Assembly (NCBI RefSeq): GCF_004803835.1
Contig: NZ_CP012545.1
Coordinates: forward strand, 1,240,001-1,304,000
Direction of reading: 5' to 3'
DNA from: Campylobacter sp. RM6914
GTDB lineage: Bacteria; Campylobacterota; Campylobacteria; Campylobacterales; Campylobacteraceae
DNA: 64,000 bases
Shown one piece after another: positions 13,755 through 64,000 of this stretch. A model generated the notes under the pieces. That model saw only the letters and a program-made list of their open reading frames with translations. It had not been told where the DNA came from and searched no databases. The position numbers and the translations under genes were made by a program. How positions within the stretch are numbered: the stretch's first letter is position 1; the number at the start of each line of letters is the position of its first letter.

Positions 13755-16535
13755 CTAAGCCTTATAAACCTTAACGGCACATTTTTTATAATCCGTCTCT
13801 TTTGAGATAGGACAAGTCGCATCTAAACATACCTTGTTGATATACACGTTTTCATCAAAAAATGGTACATACACAAGTCCTACAGGCGGCTTGTTTCTAC
13901 CATTTACATCAACACGTGCTTTGACTTTACCACGGCGGCTCTCTACCCATACTATCTCATTATCAAGAACGCCGATCTTTTTCGCATCATCTTCATGCAT
14001 GTAGCAAAGCGCCTCAGGAACAGCACGATAAAGTTCAGGAACACGCATTGTCATAGTGCCGGTATGCCAATGTTCAAGCACCCTTCCCGTACATAGCCAT
14101 AACGGATACTCTTTGCTTGGCATTTCGCATGGATCCATATAAGGGCGGAAGAAAATTTTAGCTTTATTTGTTAGAGGAGTCTTATCTTGCGTTATCACGG
14201 CTTTTAAATTTCCGCTTGGAAGAGCTGCGTTTTTGTTACCGTAGAATGCAAAATTTTCACCCTCTTTTGCATATTTTTTAGCATAATAATCAAATTTAAC
14301 GTTAAATCTCCACTGTGTCTCTTTGCCATTTACTACCGGCCATCTAAGTCCGCGCACTCTATGATACGTATCAAAATCAGCCAAGTCATGTCCATGTCCT
14401 ACGCCAAATTTTCTATACTCTTCCCATAGATATTTTTGAACAAAGAAGCCATAACCGTTAAATTCTTTACCGTCTGAGCCGACAACTTTACGTTTGTCAC
14501 CAAACACTTCAGAGTTATCGTAATCCTCCATAATAGCGTCTTTAGCGTTAAAGCTTTTTGCGTATTCATTAGCAAATAACACATCATAAAGCGTGTCTTC
14601 TTCGCTATAACCCATAGCTTTTGCTTCTTCAAGAACGCTAGGAAGAGTAACTTTATCATTTACTTTTACTTCGCCCCAGAACTCTTTTATCTTAAATCTT
14701 TTTGTAAATTCCATAATCTGCCACGTATCACTCATCGCTTCGCCGACAGGAAGAACTTGTTGTCTCCAGTGTTGAGTTCTACGCTCTGCGTTACCGTATG
14801 CACCCCATTTCTCATATATCATCGCTGTTGGAAGTATAAGGTCTGCAACTTTAGCAGAAATTCCAGGATATGGATCTGAAACAACGATAAAGTTATCCAT
14901 CTCACGTGCCGCTTTTATCCAGTGGTTTGCATTTGCAGTGTTTTGCCAAGGGTTGTTTACCTGAACCCAGATAAATTTATTTTTACCATCTTCAAGATCA
15001 CGAAGCATTTTTACATAATGAGAAGCAACAACGTGGTTTATAGTATTTTTAGGAAGTTTCCAAATTTGCTCGGTTATCTCTCTGTGTTTTGGATTAGCAA
15101 CAACCATGTCGGCAGGCAAGCGATGAACAAATGTTCCAACTTCGCGCGCTGTTCCGCATGCGCTTGGTTGTCCTGTTAGCGAGAAAGCACCGGATCCCGG
15201 AAGCGCTTGCTTGCCAAGCAGGAAGTGCACCATGTAGGCTTGTTCGTTTACCCATGTTCCTCTTTGGTGTTGGTTAAAGCCCATTGTCCAAAAGCTAACT
15301 ACTTTGCGATTTTTCTCGATATAAAGGTCGGCTAATTGTTTTAATTTGGCTTTAAATTCATCTAGAGGCTCACTTGCGTCACCTTTTGCTATCTTGGCTG
15401 TAAATTCCAAAGTATAAGGTGCAAGAGCTTTTTTAAACTCCTCAAAGCTTATATGCCAGTGTGCATCTGCCTTGCCGTTATTTTTATTTTCAAGAGTATC
15501 TCCTGCTTTCATGCCAAGGTACGCCAAAGTAACACCCTCAGCTTCACTTAAAACTTTTGATTTCTCTGTTGCTGCGGTATCTAACTCACTTGGTAGATAT
15601 TTTGCGTGTTTGGTTTCCGGTCTAAGTCCGTAACCTATATCAACCGGACCCGTTGTAAATACGCAGTGACGTTTTACAAATTCCTGATCTATCATTTCAG
15701 GATGATTGTAAACTATCTCGCGAGCTATATAGTTCCAAATAGCAAGATCTGTAGATGGAGCAAAGATGATCTCTATATCTGCTAAATTTGAAGTTCTGTT
15801 TGAAAAAGTAGTTAAATTTACCACTTTAACCCTATCAGGATCACCAAGCTTTCTATCGCTTATGCGTGACCACAAGATCGGGTGCATCTCAGCCATGTTT
15901 GCGCCCCATGTTACGACAGTATCTGTCATCTCGATATCATCATAGCAACCAGCAGGCTCATCCACACCAAAAACTTGCATAAAACCGACAACGGCAGATG
16001 CCATACAGTGTCTTGCGTTTGGATCTATGGAGTTACTTCTAAAGCCGCCTTTCATCATTTTTGAAGCGGCATAACCCTCCATGATAGTGTATTGGCCAGA
16101 TCCTAAAACTCCTACGCCATGAGGACCTAGCTCTTTATAGGCTTTTCTAAATTGCACCTCCATTACATCAAAGGCTTGCTTCCAGCTAACTTGCTTAAAT
16201 TTACCTTTTTTATCAAATTCACCTTTTTCATTTACACGAAGCAAAGGATGAGTTATACGGTCTTCGCCATACATTATCTTTGCATTAAAATAACCTTTAA
16301 TACAGTTTAATCCACGGTTAACAGGTGCTTCAGGGTCACCTTTGACGGCTACGATCTTACCGTCTTTAGTAGCCACCATGATACCACAACCCGTACCACA
16401 GAAACGACAGGCAGCCTTATCCCAACGCCAACCTTTTTCTACTTCGTTTGCGTTAAGTCCGCTAGGTAGTGCGATACCGGCACTAGCACAAGCAGCCGTT
16501 GCGGCAGCTGATTTTATAAATTCCCGACGATCCAT
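13755..16535 (-). CDS. napA: NapA periplasmic nitrate reductase catalytic subunit
   Basis: 926-aa molybdoenzyme that reduces nitrate to nitrite in the periplasm. The twin-arginine leader is [20 protein letters not shown]. The [4Fe-4S] site is formed by [12 protein letters not shown] plus the later CIKGY cysteine near residues 43-78. The Mo-ligand cysteine is in [11 protein letters not shown] near residue 176. Bis-MGD-binding segments follow over the whole length, which is normal for epsilonproteobacterial NapA. An AAGGAG site precedes the ATG. It is the first gene of the operon, preceded by 487 bp of noncoding DNA that must contain the promoter. Confidence 0.97.
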
Positions 16536-56449: not shown

Positions 56450-57082
56450 ATGAAAAACTATCTTGACATTATAAATTTTCGCCATGCATGCAAAATTTTT
56501 GACGACACAAAAAAGATTAAAAGCGAAGATTTTGATTTTATTTTAGAAGCGGGTCGTGTAAGTCCAAGCTCGACAGGACTTGAGCAATGGGACTTTGTGG
56601 TGGTGCAAAACCCGGCACTTAGAGAAAAGATACGCAAGGTATCATGGGATCAACCGCAAATCACCACTTGCTCGCACTTGGTTATCATTTTAGCTAAAAT
56701 TTCAGACATCAAAAGCGATAGCAAATACGTAGCTGATATGATAAACAGACGTCCTGATAAAACACCTCAAGAGCATGAAGCTAGAGTGAATTTTTACAAA
56801 AATTTCATCACAGAGAATTTTAAAGACGATGATGAGTTGTTGTTTCAGTGGTCACACGAGCAGTGCATGTATCCTGCGATAAATATGATGAATGCCGCAG
56901 CATCTCTTGGCATAGACAGCTGCCCGATAGAGGGTTTTGAGCGTGAAGAGGTTGGCAAGCTTTTAAATATCGATCCCAAAAAACACCGCGTAGCCATAGC
57001 TATACCGTTTGGATACCGCCTAAACAAACAGCCTGTTAAATATCGCAGAACGATGGACGACGTTGTTACTTGGATAAATTAA
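56450..57082 (+). CDS. rdxA: RdxA/NfsB-like FMN nitroreductase
   Basis: 210 aa, the length of oxygen-insensitive NAD(P)H nitroreductases. N-terminal RHACKIFDDTKKI, ILEAGRVSPSSTGLEQWDF and C-terminal HRVAIAIPFGYR are FMN-binding motifs. The family converts nitroaromatics to reactive products; RdxA in Helicobacter and its Campylobacter homologue are linked to metronidazole sensitivity. A GGAGAAA site precedes the ATG. It is the last clearly chromosomal gene before the prophage. Confidence 0.9.
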   Translation: MKNYLDIINFRHACKIFDDTKKIKSEDFDFILEAGRVSPSSTGLEQWDFVVVQNPALREKIRKVSWDQPQITTCSHLVIILAKISDIKSDSKYVADMINRRPDKTPQEHEARVNFYKNFITENFKDDDELLFQWSHEQCMYPAINMMNAAASLGIDSCPIEGFEREEVGKLLNIDPKKHRVAIAIPFGYRLNKQPVKYRRTMDDVVTWIN

Positions 57083-57113: not shown

Positions 57114-57241
57114 AAAATCTTCAAAAATTTACTTTTTAAAAATTCAAACAATCATTAAAATAAGAACATAGCAAAAATAAATAAAACCGTATCAAAATGA
57201 AAGTTATTAAAAGTTATTAAAATGTGTTTAAATAGTCCAAA

Positions 57242-57256
57242 TGGTGGAAGCGAGGG
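57242..57256 (-). other. Putative prophage attachment site (tmRNA 3' end copy)
   Basis: On the minus strand this reads CCCTCGCTTCCACCA, ending in CCA. As I remember it, the tmRNA of C. jejuni ends with this sequence, and its acceptor strand GGGAGCG pairs with CGCTTCC. Nothing else of ssrA follows, so this looks like the short duplicate left on the distal side of an element that integrated into ssrA. Host gene rdxA lies to the left and phage genes to the right. Confidence 0.65.
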
Positions 57257-57317: not shown

Positions 57318-57341
57318 AAGTCCGTTAATAAGTCCGTTAAA
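57318..57341 (+). repeat. Tandem 12-bp repeat
   Basis: Two direct copies of AAGTCCGTTAAT/A (57318-57329 and 57330-57341), differing in the last base. It lies next to the presumed att site and could be integrase arm-type or regulator binding sites; role unknown. Confidence 0.6.
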
Positions 57342-57556: not shown

Positions 57557-58153
57557 ATGATACAGTATTTATTAAGCGCGGCAAGAGAGCACAACAAGGA
57601 GCTTAGCGAGAAAGAATTTATAACAAACGGCTTATACCGCGAGAGCTTAGAACAAATTGAAAAAGAACTTGAGCCGTTTATATTTGACGGCGAAGCTTGC
57701 GACAACCTTGCAGAGGGCTTCGTGAAATTTAAAGAGCTACTAGAACAAATCGAAAAAAAATCAGGCGGTGCGTTTGCGCTACTTGCTGCCGAAACTCTTT
57801 TGATGACCCCGCCTTTTGGTCTTGTGGCAACTAATGATAACTTGTTTTTCGAAATGGATAATTTTTATAGTGATCTTTGCTATGCCTCTACTGAGGCAGC
57901 AAGTGGCGGTCGAAACATCGCGGAAGCCAGAGAAAGTTTAGGAATTCCACAAGTAAAAGAGTTTCGAACAAATCTTATCTACGCCGGAAACCCGCAAAAG
58001 GGTCAAGTGTTTATTTGTGAGCTTGTTGTTGAAATCAAAAGCACAGGGGCAGTTTTCGGCTTACCATTGATAGATGTAAGGTTTAAAACGAAAACACTAA
58101 GAAAGATGGTCGGCGAAACAATGGTTGATGTAGTCGATAATGTAGAGATTTAA
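57557..58153 (+). CDS. Unknown prophage-edge protein
   Basis: 198-aa soluble protein, no signal peptide or membrane segment. The first half is Glu/Lys-rich and helical (KELSEKEFITNGLYRESLEQ). The second half has beta-rich segments such as KGQVFICELVVEIKSTGAVF. I do not recognise the family. It has an AAAGGAT ribosome-binding site, runs opposite to the late genes, and is coupled (1-nt gap) to a small HTH protein. Position suggests lysogeny, exclusion or defence cargo, but this is inference. Confidence 0.72.
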   Translation: MIQYLLSAAREHNKELSEKEFITNGLYRESLEQIEKELEPFIFDGEACDNLAEGFVKFKELLEQIEKKSGGAFALLAAETLLMTPPFGLVATNDNLFFEMDNFYSDLCYASTEAASGGRNIAEARESLGIPQVKEFRTNLIYAGNPQKGQVFICELVVEIKSTGAVFGLPLIDVRFKTKTLRKMVGETMVDVVDNVEI

Positions 58154-58154
58154 A

Positions 58155-58346
58155 ATGGCTGGAGAAACAAAAATCAAAAAAGCCACCCTAAAAGAGGTAG
58201 CTGACTTCCTAGAGCGCCCATACGAAACCGTGAAGCGCTGGGATAAAAAGAAAAAGGTGGCGCTCCAATACGGAGTGCCTATTATAAAAGAGATAAGAGA
58301 AAATTCAGAAAAAAAAGAATACAATTCAAACACGGCTAGCATTTAA
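58155..58346 (+). CDS. Small HTH DNA-binding protein
   Basis: 63-aa basic protein. TLKEVADFLERPYETVKRWD followed by a Lys-rich stretch looks like a helix-turn-helix of the kind in phage Cro/regulator and transposition proteins; the rest is a charged tail. It starts 1 nt after the upstream stop, so it is co-translated with the 198-aa protein. Likely regulates this operon or the late genes. Confidence 0.68.
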   Translation: MAGETKIKKATLKEVADFLERPYETVKRWDKKKKVALQYGVPIIKEIRENSEKKEYNSNTASI

Positions 58347-58476: not shown

Positions 58477-59034
58477 CTACACCGCTTCCGCTCTAGTTCT
58501 CCAGCCATTGGCGTATATTTTCAAATTTTGTTTCTTTTCTATCAGCCTATTGTAATAGGTTATCTCGGACTTGTCATACTCTTTGTCAAATTTCACTTCG
58601 TCATAGCGATTTATCGCTGATATACTCGCCTCGCTCATATTGCCGTCATCCACTACGCCAACAACTCTTTGAGCGGTTTTAATTGCCGTTCTTATTCCGA
58701 CATTAACTCCAAACGCGAATATCTCGTCCGCCTTTTTTTGGGAGTTAATATCATCGCCTTTTATCTTATCCCAGAAATTCACTCTGTAAAATTTAACTAC
58801 CAAGTCTTGCAAAAAATCGTTTTGCATAAGGACTTTAGAGGCAGATTTTAAATCACCTTTTTTTACGTCTATCATAGTATGTACCATGCCCCACCCAGCC
58901 CAATTTGGGTGTGCCTTTTCATAAATGCCCATAAAGGTTAAGCCCTTTTCGGTTGGGTTTTGATGAAGTGCATTACTAGGATTATTAAACTCTAAGTCTA
59001 GTAGTATTTCGTATGATTGTTTAAAATTTGCCAT
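58477..59034 (-). CDS. Phage endolysin (GH108/N-acetylmuramidase type)
   Basis: 185 aa. The N-terminal domain has the NPTEKGLTFMGIYEKAHP motif, in which the Glu of EKG is the catalytic acid of glycosyl hydrolase 108 muramidases, and the C-terminal part (about residues 90-180) fits the peptidoglycan-binding domain of that family with NVGIRTAIKTAQRVVG. It would cut the glycan of peptidoglycan at lysis. There is no signal peptide, so it needs a holin. The ATG overlaps the holin stop. Confidence 0.85.
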   Translation of the reverse strand: MANFKQSYEILLDLEFNNPSNALHQNPTEKGLTFMGIYEKAHPNWAGWGMVHTMIDVKKGDLKSASKVLMQNDFLQDLVVKFYRVNFWDKIKGDDINSQKKADEIFAFGVNVGIRTAIKTAQRVVGVVDDGNMSEASISAINRYDEVKFDKEYDKSEITYYNRLIEKKQNLKIYANGWRTRAEAV

Positions 59035-59414
59035 TAAAAATTGTCCTTTTCATCTAAATTTCTTGGTATTGGTGGCACTTCATTGCCATATCCATACCCA
59101 CGATAATCATCTTGCGGTTTATTAATTCTTGATTTTATGGCTTTATCTACCATCTCATTAGCCCAGTTTGCACCACGCCAAGCAAAAAAGCCACCAACTG
59201 CTACACTTATGCGATCAACTTGTGTAAAGTAAAATGTTGCTTCGTAAGCTAAGTAGCATAAAAACATCGAGCCAGCTATACCAGTGATGATATTTAATGC
59301 GTTGTGAGCATTTGACTTTTTAGGGTCTGCAAGATTTAAAAGCCCACCGATAAAACCCATTACAACCACCCAAAAAAATGGCTTATTTGTTAAATCCTCT
59401 AAAAATTTATTCAT
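59034..59414 (-). CDS. Holin-like membrane protein
   Basis: 126 aa with three likely transmembrane helices (about residues 12-28, 38-60 and 72-82) and a charged C terminus. Placement between endolysin and spanin genes, and its size, point to a holin that permits endolysin to cross the inner membrane. I cannot name a family. It overlaps the Rz1-like gene by 8 nt. Confidence 0.7.
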   Translation of the reverse strand: MNKFLEDLTNKPFFWVVVMGFIGGLLNLADPKKSNAHNALNIITGIAGSMFLCYLAYEATFYFTQVDRISVAVGGFFAWRGANWANEMVDKAIKSRINKPQDDYRGYGYGNEVPPIPRNLDEKDNF

Positions 59415-59703
59415 CGCCTACGCACCCTCTTAGCAAGGCTTCAACCTGTGCGTAGTATCTTGCTAGCTCTTTTGCACTTTGTAAGTTGTTTTGGTTATAT
59501 GCTGGTTTAGCTGGTAGCTTTGCTTCACATTTTATCGGCACATAAACATCTTGAAATTTTGTCTGTGTGATGATTTGTGGCTTACTACTAGCACAACCAC
59601 CGATTAATACAATCACTAAACATAGCAAGATTATAAAAGCTATCTTACGCACCTTTTGGCGTGTTTTATAAAGCTTGTATCTTAAAATTTGTGCTTCACT
59701 CAT
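59407..59703 (-). CDS. Rz1-like outer-membrane spanin lipoprotein
   Basis: 98 aa from ATG 59703 (MSEAQILRYKLY). A hydrophobic segment ends in a lipobox LIGGC (near residue 38), followed by CASSKPQIITQTKFQDVYVP with the proline-rich, short ectodomain usual for o-spanins. Its first 8 nt lie inside the Rz-like gene. With Rz it would fuse inner and outer membranes at the end of lysis. An alternative is a small phage lipoprotein. Confidence 0.72.
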   Translation of the reverse strand: MSEAQILRYKLYKTRQKVRKIAFIILLCLVIVLIGGCASSKPQIITQTKFQDVYVPIKCEAKLPAKPAYNQNNLQSAKELARYYAQVEALLRGCVGDE

Positions 59704-60091
59704 CGCCAAGCTCTTTAAAAAGATTTTCATAAAATTTTAGTTTGCTTTCGCATTTTGCATTATGTGCTGGTGTTTGTATGCGCTCATATTTACGCTCTAA
59801 CTTAACTTGTAGCTTTTGTGCTTGCTTTTTTAGCATATCATTATCAAGGCTTATGGCTTTTAGCTTTGTATTTGTAAGTGTTATTCTACTTTCACACTCA
59901 TTTAAATTTGCGTTTGATATTTGTAAGTTTGCCTCTTTGCTAACTAGGTTTAAACTAAGTTGTGAGTTTTGCTCTTTTAAGCTTTTTATCTCGTTATTTA
60001 GTTTTAAATTTACTAACCAAAGACCAAGCAACACACCAAGCAAACCACCAACTACTACAAGCCAAAATTTGTTATTTAGTAAAAAGTTCAT
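59696..60091 (-). CDS. Rz-like inner-membrane spanin
   Basis: 131 aa: one N-terminal transmembrane helix (about residues 9-27) followed by a long coiled coil (about 30-110, with NNEIKSLKEQNSQLSLNL) in the periplasm, the standard i-spanin layout. The stop overlaps the Rz1-like gene by 8 nt, an overlapped spanin pair. Part of the lysis cassette. Confidence 0.75.
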   Translation of the reverse strand: MNFLLNNKFWLVVVGGLLGVLLGLWLVNLKLNNEIKSLKEQNSQLSLNLVSKEANLQISNANLNECESRITLTNTKLKAISLDNDMLKKQAQKLQVKLERKYERIQTPAHNAKCESKLKFYENLFKELGDE

Positions 60092-60513: not shown

Positions 60514-60846
60514 TTACCCTCCATATCTTAACTTATGCCACGCACGGCACGCTAGGTAAAAGCACCATACTTTGATTTTAGAGCAGCCAAGCTCGGTCAT
60601 CATCTCACGCAAAACTTCGTCCGCCTCTTTGTACCTTTCTTTGTCGCACAGGTAGTCATGCACCACTATCGCCGAAAGATATTCGGGGCTATTTGGTGGA
60701 AATACACTCCAAAAGATACGTGGTACATTTGCGCCGTTTGTCTTGTATGCTGCTGGAACTACGATATTGCCGTACTCGTATGACTCGACTAGCTCAAACC
60801 TATCTTTTGAGAAAGGTTTGAGTATGGGTCTTTTGATTTCATTCAT
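60514..60846 (-). CDS. DUF1353 family phage protein
   Basis: 110 aa with the conserved TNGANVPRIFWSVFPPNSPE and VVHDYLCDKERY motifs of DUF1353, a phage tail/baseplate-region family of unknown activity. Overlaps the next upstream gene by 8 nt. Confidence 0.85.
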   Translation of the reverse strand: MNEIKRPILKPFSKDRFELVESYEYGNIVVPAAYKTNGANVPRIFWSVFPPNSPEYLSAIVVHDYLCDKERYKEADEVLREMMTELGCSKIKVWCFYLACRAWHKLRYGG

Positions 60847-61315
60847 TGCTTGCTCCTTGTTCGTTAGACGGTTCTATTTGTGTAGAAGCTTCGGGAAGCT
60901 CGAGACGCGGCATATCGCTCATCGCTCTTGCGATATTTTCTTCGCTTATCTCTAGCTCACCTTTTTGCACCTTTTCAAGAATTCCGTAGCAGTATGTATA
61001 GACGTTCGAACGCCACTTGAAAAAGGCTACTCCCTCATCGTAGAAAGGATTTGGCATAGCCGCATAGCTTGCGGCGGTTGCTATGTTGTCGTATCCTTTT
61101 TCGTGTGCTTTTTGATTTAGAAGAGCGTCTACGTCCGAAAGGAACTTAGCTTTTACTTCCTCAAGTGTCGGCTCTTTTGGTTTGTTTAGCTCTTCGAGTT
61201 CTTTTTGAGTGAGTTTTTTTAGCCCTAGTTCTTTTATCTTTGAGTTTAGAAATTCACTGCTTACATCATCGTCATAAGCGTAGATTTCATTGTTTTTGTT
61301 TTTGTAGTGTTTCAT
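60839..61315 (-). CDS. Tail-fibre assembly-like protein
   Basis: 158 aa. The Glu/Lys-rich middle (TQKELEELNKPKEPTLEEVK) and the region around NIATAASYAAMPNPFYDEGV resemble proteins that follow tail-fibre genes in Mu-like and other phages and act as chaperones or assembly factors. It lies 11 nt downstream of the collar-type fibre. Function inferred from this location. Confidence 0.7.
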   Translation of the reverse strand: MKHYKNKNNEIYAYDDDVSSEFLNSKIKELGLKKLTQKELEELNKPKEPTLEEVKAKFLSDVDALLNQKAHEKGYDNIATAASYAAMPNPFYDEGVAFFKWRSNVYTYCYGILEKVQKGELEISEENIARAMSDMPRLELPEASTQIEPSNEQGASNE

Positions 61316-61326
61316 TGTTTTGTCCT

Positions 61327-63096
61327 TTATCTTAATTCAAGCCATAGAGGTATTGTTCCTGCGTTGATTGCTGCAGAGTATGTGGAGCCGGGAGGTATTA
61401 TCGCACAAAGTGATATGATCTCTGATGCTGATGTTGCGAAGTATTGGAGCGGTTTTCCATCTACCGTGAGTATTCCGCCACAACTGCCTGTGAGTGCAGA
61501 TGTTCTTAGGGAGATATAAATAGGTCTACCTGTAGTGTTGGTATATGTTATACCCGGCTTTCTGTCTTTGGTCATATCTTGCCAAGCTTGGTCTACACCT
61601 ATACTTTTGTTTGCCTCTATGGCTTCTTTCACCGCTTTTTCGGTTACGGCTACATCTTCGGCATTACCGGTAATTGAGTTTTTTAGCTTTGTTATTCCAG
61701 CCTTTGCTTCTGTGGCGTATGGCGTGTCGTCTATCTCTGATTGCGTGGCTTCTTTGACATCTTTGGCTTTTATAAGAACAACTACTGAACTGTTTGTTGG
61801 TCTTGTTTCATCACCACCAGTTTCACTGGTAGGGTTATTCAATGTTAAAGATTGGTGTCCATACCAGTTGCCACTCTGTGTGCCTATGTTTCCTCTAGAT
61901 GTATAAAAGTTATGACTATGTTTCTTTATTTCATCTTGCTGTAGCTCGCCCAAAGGCAACGCATTCCCGCCTACGCTTCGCATAAATCTACCATCGTTGA
62001 ATGTGGGGATATTGAAACTCTCTCCGCTTCCGCCGTATGTATAGCCTATGACGGCAAAGAGTTCGGCATACTCTGATTTTACAAGGCTTCGTCCGTCGCA
62101 AACAAGAAAACCCGAGGGCGTATGGCTTTCAGAACTCCAAAGCAGGTATGAGCCAATTTTGAGCCCGTCGCTTATTTCGGATTTTAGGGCGTATTCATTA
62201 GCACTTACTCCGCCAAGTTTTGCACTATTAGTTGCCGTGGCGGTGATGTCTAGCTTTGTATCATCTGTTATCGTTATATCTTTAGTGCCGTCAAAAGCTA
62301 CTCCGTTTATGGTTACGGGAGTTGCTAGTTTTGACGCACTTGCTGCATTTTCGTTTGAATCTAGCTTTTTGTCTAATTCATTTTGAACAGCTGTAGATAT
62401 AGGTTTGTCTATATCCGGCGTATTATCTACCTTGTCTATGCCTAGAGTTGTTTTATTTGTCGAGGATGTAATTAGCTCGTTTGTTTTTGCGGAGCTATAT
62501 ACCGTTGCTGCGCTTACCATATCATCATTTACTAGACCATTCGTGTTTATGCTGATCAGGTCTCGTAGCTCGTTTTCTACCCTTTCTTTGGTCGCAATGA
62601 ATTCTTCTTTGCTTTCGTCGTATTGGGTTTTATTGTCGGTTATATCGGCGTTTAATTTGCTTATATCATTTCTTAAACTGATCGTGTCGTTAAATGCGAT
62701 TAAAAATTCCTCTACTTTTTTATATATTTCCGTCTTAGTGCTATTTACCTCGACAGCCGTCGCACTATTTTCGTCGCTTATATCGTCTATGGTAGTTTTT
62801 AGCTCGTTTAACCTATCAAGAAGAGGCGTAAACTCCGGGTAAGTGTTAAGAAAAACGGAATACTTAGAATTAAAGTCTGACGCTTGAACGTCTAGTGCCT
62901 CTTTTGCAGCTAGAATATCTTGCTTTATGTTCGAGACATCATTTTTTGTTTTTGAGATTTGTGCCCCTATTGCCCTGACACTATCTAAGTTTATATTGTT
63001 TATTGCTTCTTCAAGCGACGTAAGCTCATTTAGTAAAAACTGCAAAGCTTCTAATTTTTCAGCCCCAAGTTTTAGTTCATAGATTGATGATGGCAT
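61327..63096 (-). CDS. Tail fibre with phage tail-collar domain
   Basis: 589 aa. The N-terminal 320 residues are helical and repetitive (KTDVSNIKQDILAAKEAL-like coiled coil). The tail-collar domain follows near residue 330, with SGFLVCDGRSLVKSEYAELF, GGSGESFNIPTFNDGRFM and a following RPTNSSVVVLIKA. The C terminus probably binds the host surface. The first gene of the receptor-binding part of the late block; its start overlaps the previous stop by 1 nt. Confidence 0.88.
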   Translation of the reverse strand: MPSSIYELKLGAEKLEALQFLLNELTSLEEAINNINLDSVRAIGAQISKTKNDVSNIKQDILAAKEALDVQASDFNSKYSVFLNTYPEFTPLLDRLNELKTTIDDISDENSATAVEVNSTKTEIYKKVEEFLIAFNDTISLRNDISKLNADITDNKTQYDESKEEFIATKERVENELRDLISINTNGLVNDDMVSAATVYSSAKTNELITSSTNKTTLGIDKVDNTPDIDKPISTAVQNELDKKLDSNENAASASKLATPVTINGVAFDGTKDITITDDTKLDITATATNSAKLGGVSANEYALKSEISDGLKIGSYLLWSSESHTPSGFLVCDGRSLVKSEYAELFAVIGYTYGGSGESFNIPTFNDGRFMRSVGGNALPLGELQQDEIKKHSHNFYTSRGNIGTQSGNWYGHQSLTLNNPTSETGGDETRPTNSSVVVLIKAKDVKEATQSEIDDTPYATEAKAGITKLKNSITGNAEDVAVTEKAVKEAIEANKSIGVDQAWQDMTKDRKPGITYTNTTGRPIYISLRTSALTGSCGGILTVDGKPLQYFATSASEIISLCAIIPPGSTYSAAINAGTIPLWLELR

Positions 63097-63242
63097 TATT
63101 TATCCTTTTGTAGTCCGCTATTTTTTATTGTTTCTTTGGATGATATAAGTTTTTTGCTAATCTCTTTAAATATCTTTAGCAAATCTATTTTTGATAGTTT
63201 TTCTGCGTTTTTTAAAGCTGTTATAAAACCACTTTCATTCAT
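63096..63242 (-). CDS. 48-aa phage protein
   Basis: Starts MNESGFITALKNAEKLSKID at ATG 63242, with GAGGAAATC upstream, overlapping the previous stop by 8 nt. A longer frame to 63314 lies inside that gene and is not chosen. Charged and helical; unknown function, perhaps a small tail or chaperone protein. Confidence 0.65.
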   Translation of the reverse strand: MNESGFITALKNAEKLSKIDLLKIFKEISKKLISSKETIKNSGLQKDK

Positions 63243-63615
63243 ATAGATTTCCTCTTCCATCGTTTGCGATATACTCTGAGATATTTTCAAGTGCCAAAGA
63301 TCTGTAAAACTCATCTTTATTGATGATAAAAGCCACGTAGTTTATGACCGCATAAGTTAGGCTCTCATCTATCATTATGTGTTCGTTCTCGTTGGCAAAA
63401 TTTGGTTTATCTGGGTAAGTTATATAAAAACCGTCCTCTAAGTGCCTATACACACGCCCACCTTGTTCGCCCCTTATTAGCTCACTAGGCACGCACTTAT
63501 TAGCCACATACAGCATAGCTTCTAAAAATATTTCAGAGAGTATCTCATCAGACGGCAAAGCCCTACCGCTCGCCGTCTTTATTTGTAAGATTTCCTTAGC
63601 TCTTACGCTAGTCAT
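63235..63615 (-). CDS. Phage head-tail region protein
   Basis: 126 aa, mostly helical, starting MTSVRAKEILQIKTASGRAL. Location directly after the major capsid gene and length of about 125 aa fit a head-tail connector or head-completion protein. I recognise no motif. It overlaps the capsid gene by 4 nt. Confidence 0.68.
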   Translation of the reverse strand: MTSVRAKEILQIKTASGRALPSDEILSEIFLEAMLYVANKCVPSELIRGEQGGRVYRHLEDGFYITYPDKPNFANENEHIMIDESLTYAVINYVAFIINKDEFYRSLALENISEYIANDGRGNLYE

Positions 63616-64000
63616 ACTTGCTCGCTTTTTAGTCCCACACCGATAGCAAAGGCATTAGGGTTACGCACCTCTAGACAACACTCGGTGTAGTAGCGCTTTT
63701 GCTTTGCGGTTTTGCTTGTCGGAACATCCTCGATAGTAGTCGGAATAAATAGCCCGTTTTTCGCGTAGCTAAAATCCCCCGCGATTAGCACGTCAGCTAG
63801 CCCAAATTTACTACTTAAAAAGCGGTGCATTCTAAAATTGACTTTACCGAAATCAGTATCCAGGCTTACCACTTTTGCCTTTAGCGCGGTTTCGTTGCTA
63901 AATTGACGCGTTGCTAGCTTATTGATCGCGGGTTTTAGCGCAGCACCGATAAATATGTCTTTTGGTGTCGCCCCACTGTCCCAAATTTGCTGTAAAATTT
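63612..64000 (-). CDS. SU10-like major capsid protein (3' part)
   Basis: The frame is open from the window edge to 63612, giving the last 129 residues. The start ILQQIWDSGATPKDIFIGAA and the end with GDFSYAKNGLFIPT and CCLEVRNPNAFAIGVGL resemble the C-terminal part of the SU10/DUF5309 capsid family, an HK97-fold protein of phages. An ORF caller would start inside at 63872 (a GTG), but translation upstream is open, so the gene is truncated by the window. Confidence 0.72.
   Translation of the reverse strand, partial: ILQQIWDSGATPKDIFIGAALKPAINKLATRQFSNETALKAKVVSLDTDFGKVNFRMHRFLSSKFGLADVLIAGDFSYAKNGLFIPTTIEDVPTSKTAKQKRYYTECCLEVRNPNAFAIGVGLKSEQV

Follow-up and report, generated by a model that had tools for sequence, protein, structure and literature searches.

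Integration at ssrA, the gene of tmRNA, is known in many bacteria, and phage P4, a satellite phage, integrates in a tRNA-Leu gene. The ssrA islands of Dehalococcoides are flanked by ssrA and by a 20-bp repeat of its 3' end (PMC3146451). In Campylobacter, prophages have been described at tRNA genes; these are CJIE2, CJIE4 and CLIE1 (PMC539331) and the zot prophages (PMC5025632). A search of the open literature for a Campylobacter prophage at ssrA found none; most subscription papers were outside that search and no claim of priority is made.

The stretch of DNA analysed here, in the following called the window, has a length of 64,000 bp (G000:C1:1240001-1304000) and is part of a genome of 1,782,759 bp assembled as one contig. 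An earlier note, made from the letters of the window, had pointed to a 15-mer which it took for the 3' end of a tmRNA gene on the minus strand. The reading to which we assign a probability of about 0.97 is that this 15-mer is the attL scar left when a temperate podovirus-like prophage of 35.6 kb integrated at the ssrA 3' end.

The 15-mer TGGTGGAAGCGAGGG is found at 57242-57256, and the window contains no other match to it even when two mismatches are allowed (0.03 expected). The whole genome holds two exact copies, at C1:1297242-1297256 and at C1:1332865-1332879, where the base composition would give approximately 0.0006 copies per genome. The second copy forms the 3' end of an intact ssrA, and the left copy, read on the minus strand as CCCTCGCTTCCACCA, is thereby identified as a copy of the tmRNA 3' end, as had been proposed. 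Judged by eye from the sequence, these 15 gene bases make up, in the RNA, the 3' strand of the acceptor stem, the discriminator, the CCA and 4 nt of the T stem.

The note had also predicted that an intact minus-strand ssrA with an integrase next to it would lie beyond position 64000, and that the repeat would recur at the far end of the prophage. All of this is present. A single intact ssrA is located on the minus strand at C1:1332865-1333223, 35.6 kb to the right of the left copy (Rfam RF00023, E=6.8e-58); ARAGORN calls the same interval a tmRNA with the tag peptide ANNVNFAPAYAKAA, and no other intact ssrA was found elsewhere in the genome. On its prophage side, and on the same strand, a tyrosine integrase of 426 aa is encoded at C1:1331465-1332745, with 120 bp between its start and the 3' end of ssrA. 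It carries Arm-DNA-bind_3 (PF13356), a central domain and Phage_integrase (PF00589), and a 57-aa HTH_17/excisionase-like (Xis-like) protein is encoded beside it. The arrangement with the RNA gene on the N-terminal side of the integrase and on the same strand was found in 59 of 59 loci of integrase relatives that have a tRNA or tmRNA gene no further than 1.5 kb away, a number in which a few loci are counted twice.

Alignment of the two sites gives an exact common repeat of 18 bp, AAATGGTGGAAGCGAGGG, of which 57242-57256 is the part inside the tmRNA gene. To the left the repeat can be extended by 12 more bp, TTTAAATAGTC followed by C or T, to a total of 29 identical bases out of 30 with one mismatch; the attL copy of this extended repeat, TTTAAATAGTCCAAATGGTGGAAGCGAGGG, covers 57227-57256 and its attR counterpart G000:C1:1332850-1332879. 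The 15-mer copy of the note was thus real, but the actual repeat is longer. None of the IMG/VR contigs carries the extended repeat of this strain.

It might be argued that a match of just 15 bases has arisen by chance and that the phage DNA starts nearby for another reason. The match lies exactly at the host/phage boundary, it is part of the 18-bp exact repeat and of the longer repeat with its single mismatch, its second copy is ssrA itself beside an integrase, and five sister prophages have the same junction. With far fewer than one copy per genome to be expected, such a coincidence is so improbable that it was rejected on copy number and position.

To the right of the core the identity ends immediately, with CTACCATATT on the phage side (57257-57266) and GGATCGAACC in ssrA; the ten phage bases are identical in G005, G012, G019, G022 and G024. 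No remaining part of ssrA was found beside the left copy at 57242-57256, where only the core is duplicated. The comparison of the ends bears out the statement that the 15-mer stands at the border between host and phage genes with no other part of ssrA following. A copy which matches the ssrA 3' end would also be left by the decay of a second tmRNA gene, or by a duplication of ssrA that had nothing to do with integration. The identity breaks off sharply at the core, on the side of the phage, with no more of ssrA there, and the pairs of empty and occupied sites described below agree with insertion. With the duplication limited to the core this explanation was rejected, and we give it next to no weight.

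The last host gene before the prophage, at 56450-57082 on the plus strand, codes for a nitroreductase-family protein of 210 aa (PF00881, E=4.9e-27), and all 48 genomes of the genus have a homologue. The note expected that rdxA would be followed by ssrA in a relative without the prophage, which agrees only loosely with what is seen. The same host block does face ssrA in relatives, the genes for SCO1-like, rhodanese-like and nitroreductase proteins in G031 and G043, but there an apparent nap operon lies in between. In the present genome the napA homologue is found at C1:1253761-1256535 (13761-16535 of the window), some 41 kb to the left of the junction. To the right of ssrA follow what we take to be an Hpt-like gene and panB, here as in the relatives. 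The neighbourhood is thus the same apart from a local rearrangement, napA having another position than in G031 and G043, where it stands between ssrA and the nitroreductase gene. In G001 the SCO1 and rhodanese genes lie near ssrA, and an integrase remnant separates them from it. This N-terminal remnant (positions 1274-1360 of L170, G001:C2:385501-388500) comprises 29 aa, is 79% identical and lies 184 bp from ssrA; it is what is left of an element that occupied the ssrA site before.

The 15-mer was also followed through a survey set of 48 genomes of the genus, in most of which it occurs once, at ssrA. It occurs twice, 36-37.5 kb apart, in G005, G012 and G022, and its copies are on separate contigs in G019, G024 and G028. 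In G005, G012, G019, G022 and G024 an integrase 65-67% identical to the present one adjoins ssrA, and the prophages of these five genomes and the present one have the left junction TGGTGGAAGCGAGGGCTACCATATT in common. No relative of the integrase was found in G028, where both copies extend into ssrA-like sequence. The copy on contig 1 of that genome (L169, G028:C1:260001-263000) runs into at least 60 bp of such sequence while the intact ssrA is on contig 5; it is possibly a partial duplicate of ssrA or an assembly overlap. G002 has three copies of the 15-mer and two tandem elements, one of 37 kb and one of 49 kb, which carry one integrase each. In this region (G002:C1:244950-331688, L158-L160) the 15-mer marks each edge, the two integrases are different, and GAATC continues the repeat at the left edges.

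Sister genomes without a prophage have an uninterrupted site. When the occupied G012 is compared with the empty G010, the left flanks are identical in 60 of 60 positions up to the core and then diverge; in blastn the left flank is covered at 96% and the right flank at 98%, with the break at the core. The empty site is thus seen for sister prophages and not for the present strain, for whose own species no genome lacking the prophage was found. Other integrases, some of them incomplete, stand beside ssrA in G038, G039, G040, G041 and G045, and integrase remnants do so in G001 and G047. Altogether an integrase, or a part of one, stands at ssrA in about 12 of the 48 genomes, the remnants in G001 and G047 not being counted. 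This marks ssrA as an integration hotspot in this group of Campylobacter. Another branch of integrases is located at tRNA-Ala (ggc) in G024, G030, G003 and G041 (L174-L177), and at 62-66% identity this branch is found at tmRNA in G038, G039 and G040 (L178-L180).

The prophage extends over G000:C1:1297257-1332864 and continues beyond the window. Its first two genes, for proteins of 198 and 63 aa (57557-58346, plus strand), have no family match. They are followed on the minus strand by a lysis module at 58477-59730 with endolysin-like, holin-like and possible Rz-like spanin genes (PHROGs phrog_315, phrog_2073 and phrog_2291/456), and by tail genes at 60514-63096 coding for a protein of the tail assembly chaperone family, a protein of unknown function and a tail collar/fibre protein of 589 aa (phrog_1158, phrog_33019 and phrog_523). 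The window closes with a gene for a conserved phage protein and, in part, the gene of the major head protein (63235-64000, minus strand; phrog_9292, E=7.9e-38, and phrog_1328, E=1.1e-83), which is complete at C1:1303612-1304604. Further genes between the repeats code for a terminase large subunit, a head-tail adaptor/portal, a replication initiator, a CI-like repressor, an anti-repressor, a nuclease, an Erf-like annealing protein, a RecE-like exonuclease and SSB. Structural, lysis and lysogeny genes are all found between the repeats of this temperate podovirus-like prophage. A search for defence genes among seven prophage proteins gave nothing but one nuclease-domain match.

One may ask whether the element, inserted as described, is now a defective and immobile remnant fixed at ssrA. 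Inducibility is invisible in a sequence, and several of the prophage genes have no family match. The genes for the integrase, the Xis-like protein, the CI-like repressor, the anti-repressor, the terminase and the head-tail adaptor are all open, as are those for capsid, tail, lysis, replication and recombination. In the end-to-end comparison neither att core is damaged. We regard a defective element as rather unlikely, and we infer that the prophage may be inducible.

What is observed directly are the two copies and no more, the intact ssrA, the adjacent integrase, the complete-looking set of phage genes and, for sister prophages, the pairs of empty and occupied sites. The integration itself can be pictured as follows. 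The attP core was brought into register with the identical core of ssrA by a tyrosine integrase of the P4 type that has an arm-binding domain, and strands were exchanged in a short overlap inside AAGCGAGGG, within which we infer the exact crossover bases. The original 3' end of the host ssrA and its downstream flank were shifted to the left end, and the phage copy took their place at the right end. The tmRNA gene is in this way restored without a changed base, and phage DNA makes up only the trailer behind CCA. Excision would be the reversal of this reaction; the small Xis-like protein is encoded beside the integrase.

Binding sites for the integrase can be suggested from the sequence around the ends. 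In the left junction of the clade the imperfect inverted hexamers TGGTGG and CTACCA surround the 9 bp AAGCGAGGG (TGGTGG-N9-CTACCA), and they are candidate core-type integrase sites around the overlap. A motif scan and a repeat search found GTCCGTTA as two direct repeats at 57320-57339 (plus strand) and as a third copy at C1:1332721; these three are the only copies in the whole prophage, each within 150 bp of its ends, and GTCCGTTA is a candidate arm-type integrase-binding site.

The integrase of G025 is located at tRNA-Met (cat), and it is 94-97% identical to the tmRNA-targeting integrases of C. concisus (L184, G025:C39:55704-57205, and L197, compared with L157, L161, L164, L166 and L168). Its left junction is TGGTGG-GTTCACCAC-CTACCATATT, with the same flanking motifs and another 9-bp spacer; the sequence of the tRNA is TGGTGGGTTCACCAG. 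The integrase of C. gastrosuis (G032), at tRNA-Met, is degenerate, and the junction there is TGGTGG-GTTCACCAA-CTACCA. We lean slightly towards the view that the clade switches its target gene by exchange of the attP spacer while the integrase and the flanking core-type sites are kept; its basis is one near-identical case (G025) and one distant case (G032), in both of which the ends are on different contigs. If true, nature would here provide a case of lambda-type recombination in which the target was switched through an exchanged spacer. The near-identical integrases at tmRNA and at tRNA-Met offer a simple natural test of how far the target of a tyrosine integrase depends on spacer homology alone.

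CTACCA at 9 bp is absent from the attL candidates of distant integrases in G037 and G034 (both at tRNA-Leu), G018 (tRNA-Lys) and G041 (tRNA-Met), and because of this the motif is confined to the clade of about 62% identity or more. It is not universal in that clade, being absent from the site of the 62%-identical integrase of G002, where the core is longer. In the stretches read, no second copy of the core was found for the elements at tRNA-Arg in G041, tRNA-Leu in G045 and tRNA-Arg in G005.

The closest relatives of the insertion are the ssrA prophages of the C. concisus group (e.g. UNSWCS contig NZ_ANNG01000010), which have an integrase of the same clade, the same core and CTACCATATT junction and a similar size (36-37.5 kb); the prophage of G012 also shares some tail and lysis genes. 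They differ in that the integrase is one third diverged and that the arms past the core and much of the body are different. The closest phage records are the Campylobacter phages CC12667_12684_ph15 and vB_CJ12660_3PH123, integrase-bearing and of about 39.7 kb. The former is listed under Rountreeviridae, Sarlesvirinae, Minhovirus; its major head protein is 61% identical over 99% to that of the prophage, and its order of terminase, head-tail adaptor, head and tail genes is similar. The integrases of the two phages are of the same family but just 40% identical, and a megablast search of 50,697 phage records with the left 17.8 kb gave no match at the DNA level. The prophage is related to the Minhovirus-like temperate podoviruses, but it is not filed in the genus. 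The integrase of phage P4 is of the same family, with 35% identity over 92%, while the body of P4 is unlike that of the prophage.

The finding is an ordinary one, a known kind of event which the earlier note had called correctly. Its interest is that a prediction made from sequence alone was confirmed and that ssrA is marked as a hotspot, where the Campylobacter papers found give tRNA sites only. CJIE2, CJIE4, CLIE1 and the zot prophages also integrate at the 3' end of an RNA gene with direct repeats, but their targets are tRNA-Arg, -Met, -Leu and -Ser, and tmRNA is not among them (PMC539331, PMC5025632). The Dehalococcoides islands (PMC3146451) have in common with the present element the position at the 3' end of ssrA and a short direct repeat, and their tandem accretion may be compared with the two elements in G002. 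They are catabolic islands inserted in the T-loop by serine recombinases, whereas the element described here is a phage, carries a tyrosine integrase and has its core in the acceptor and T stems, on their 3' strand.
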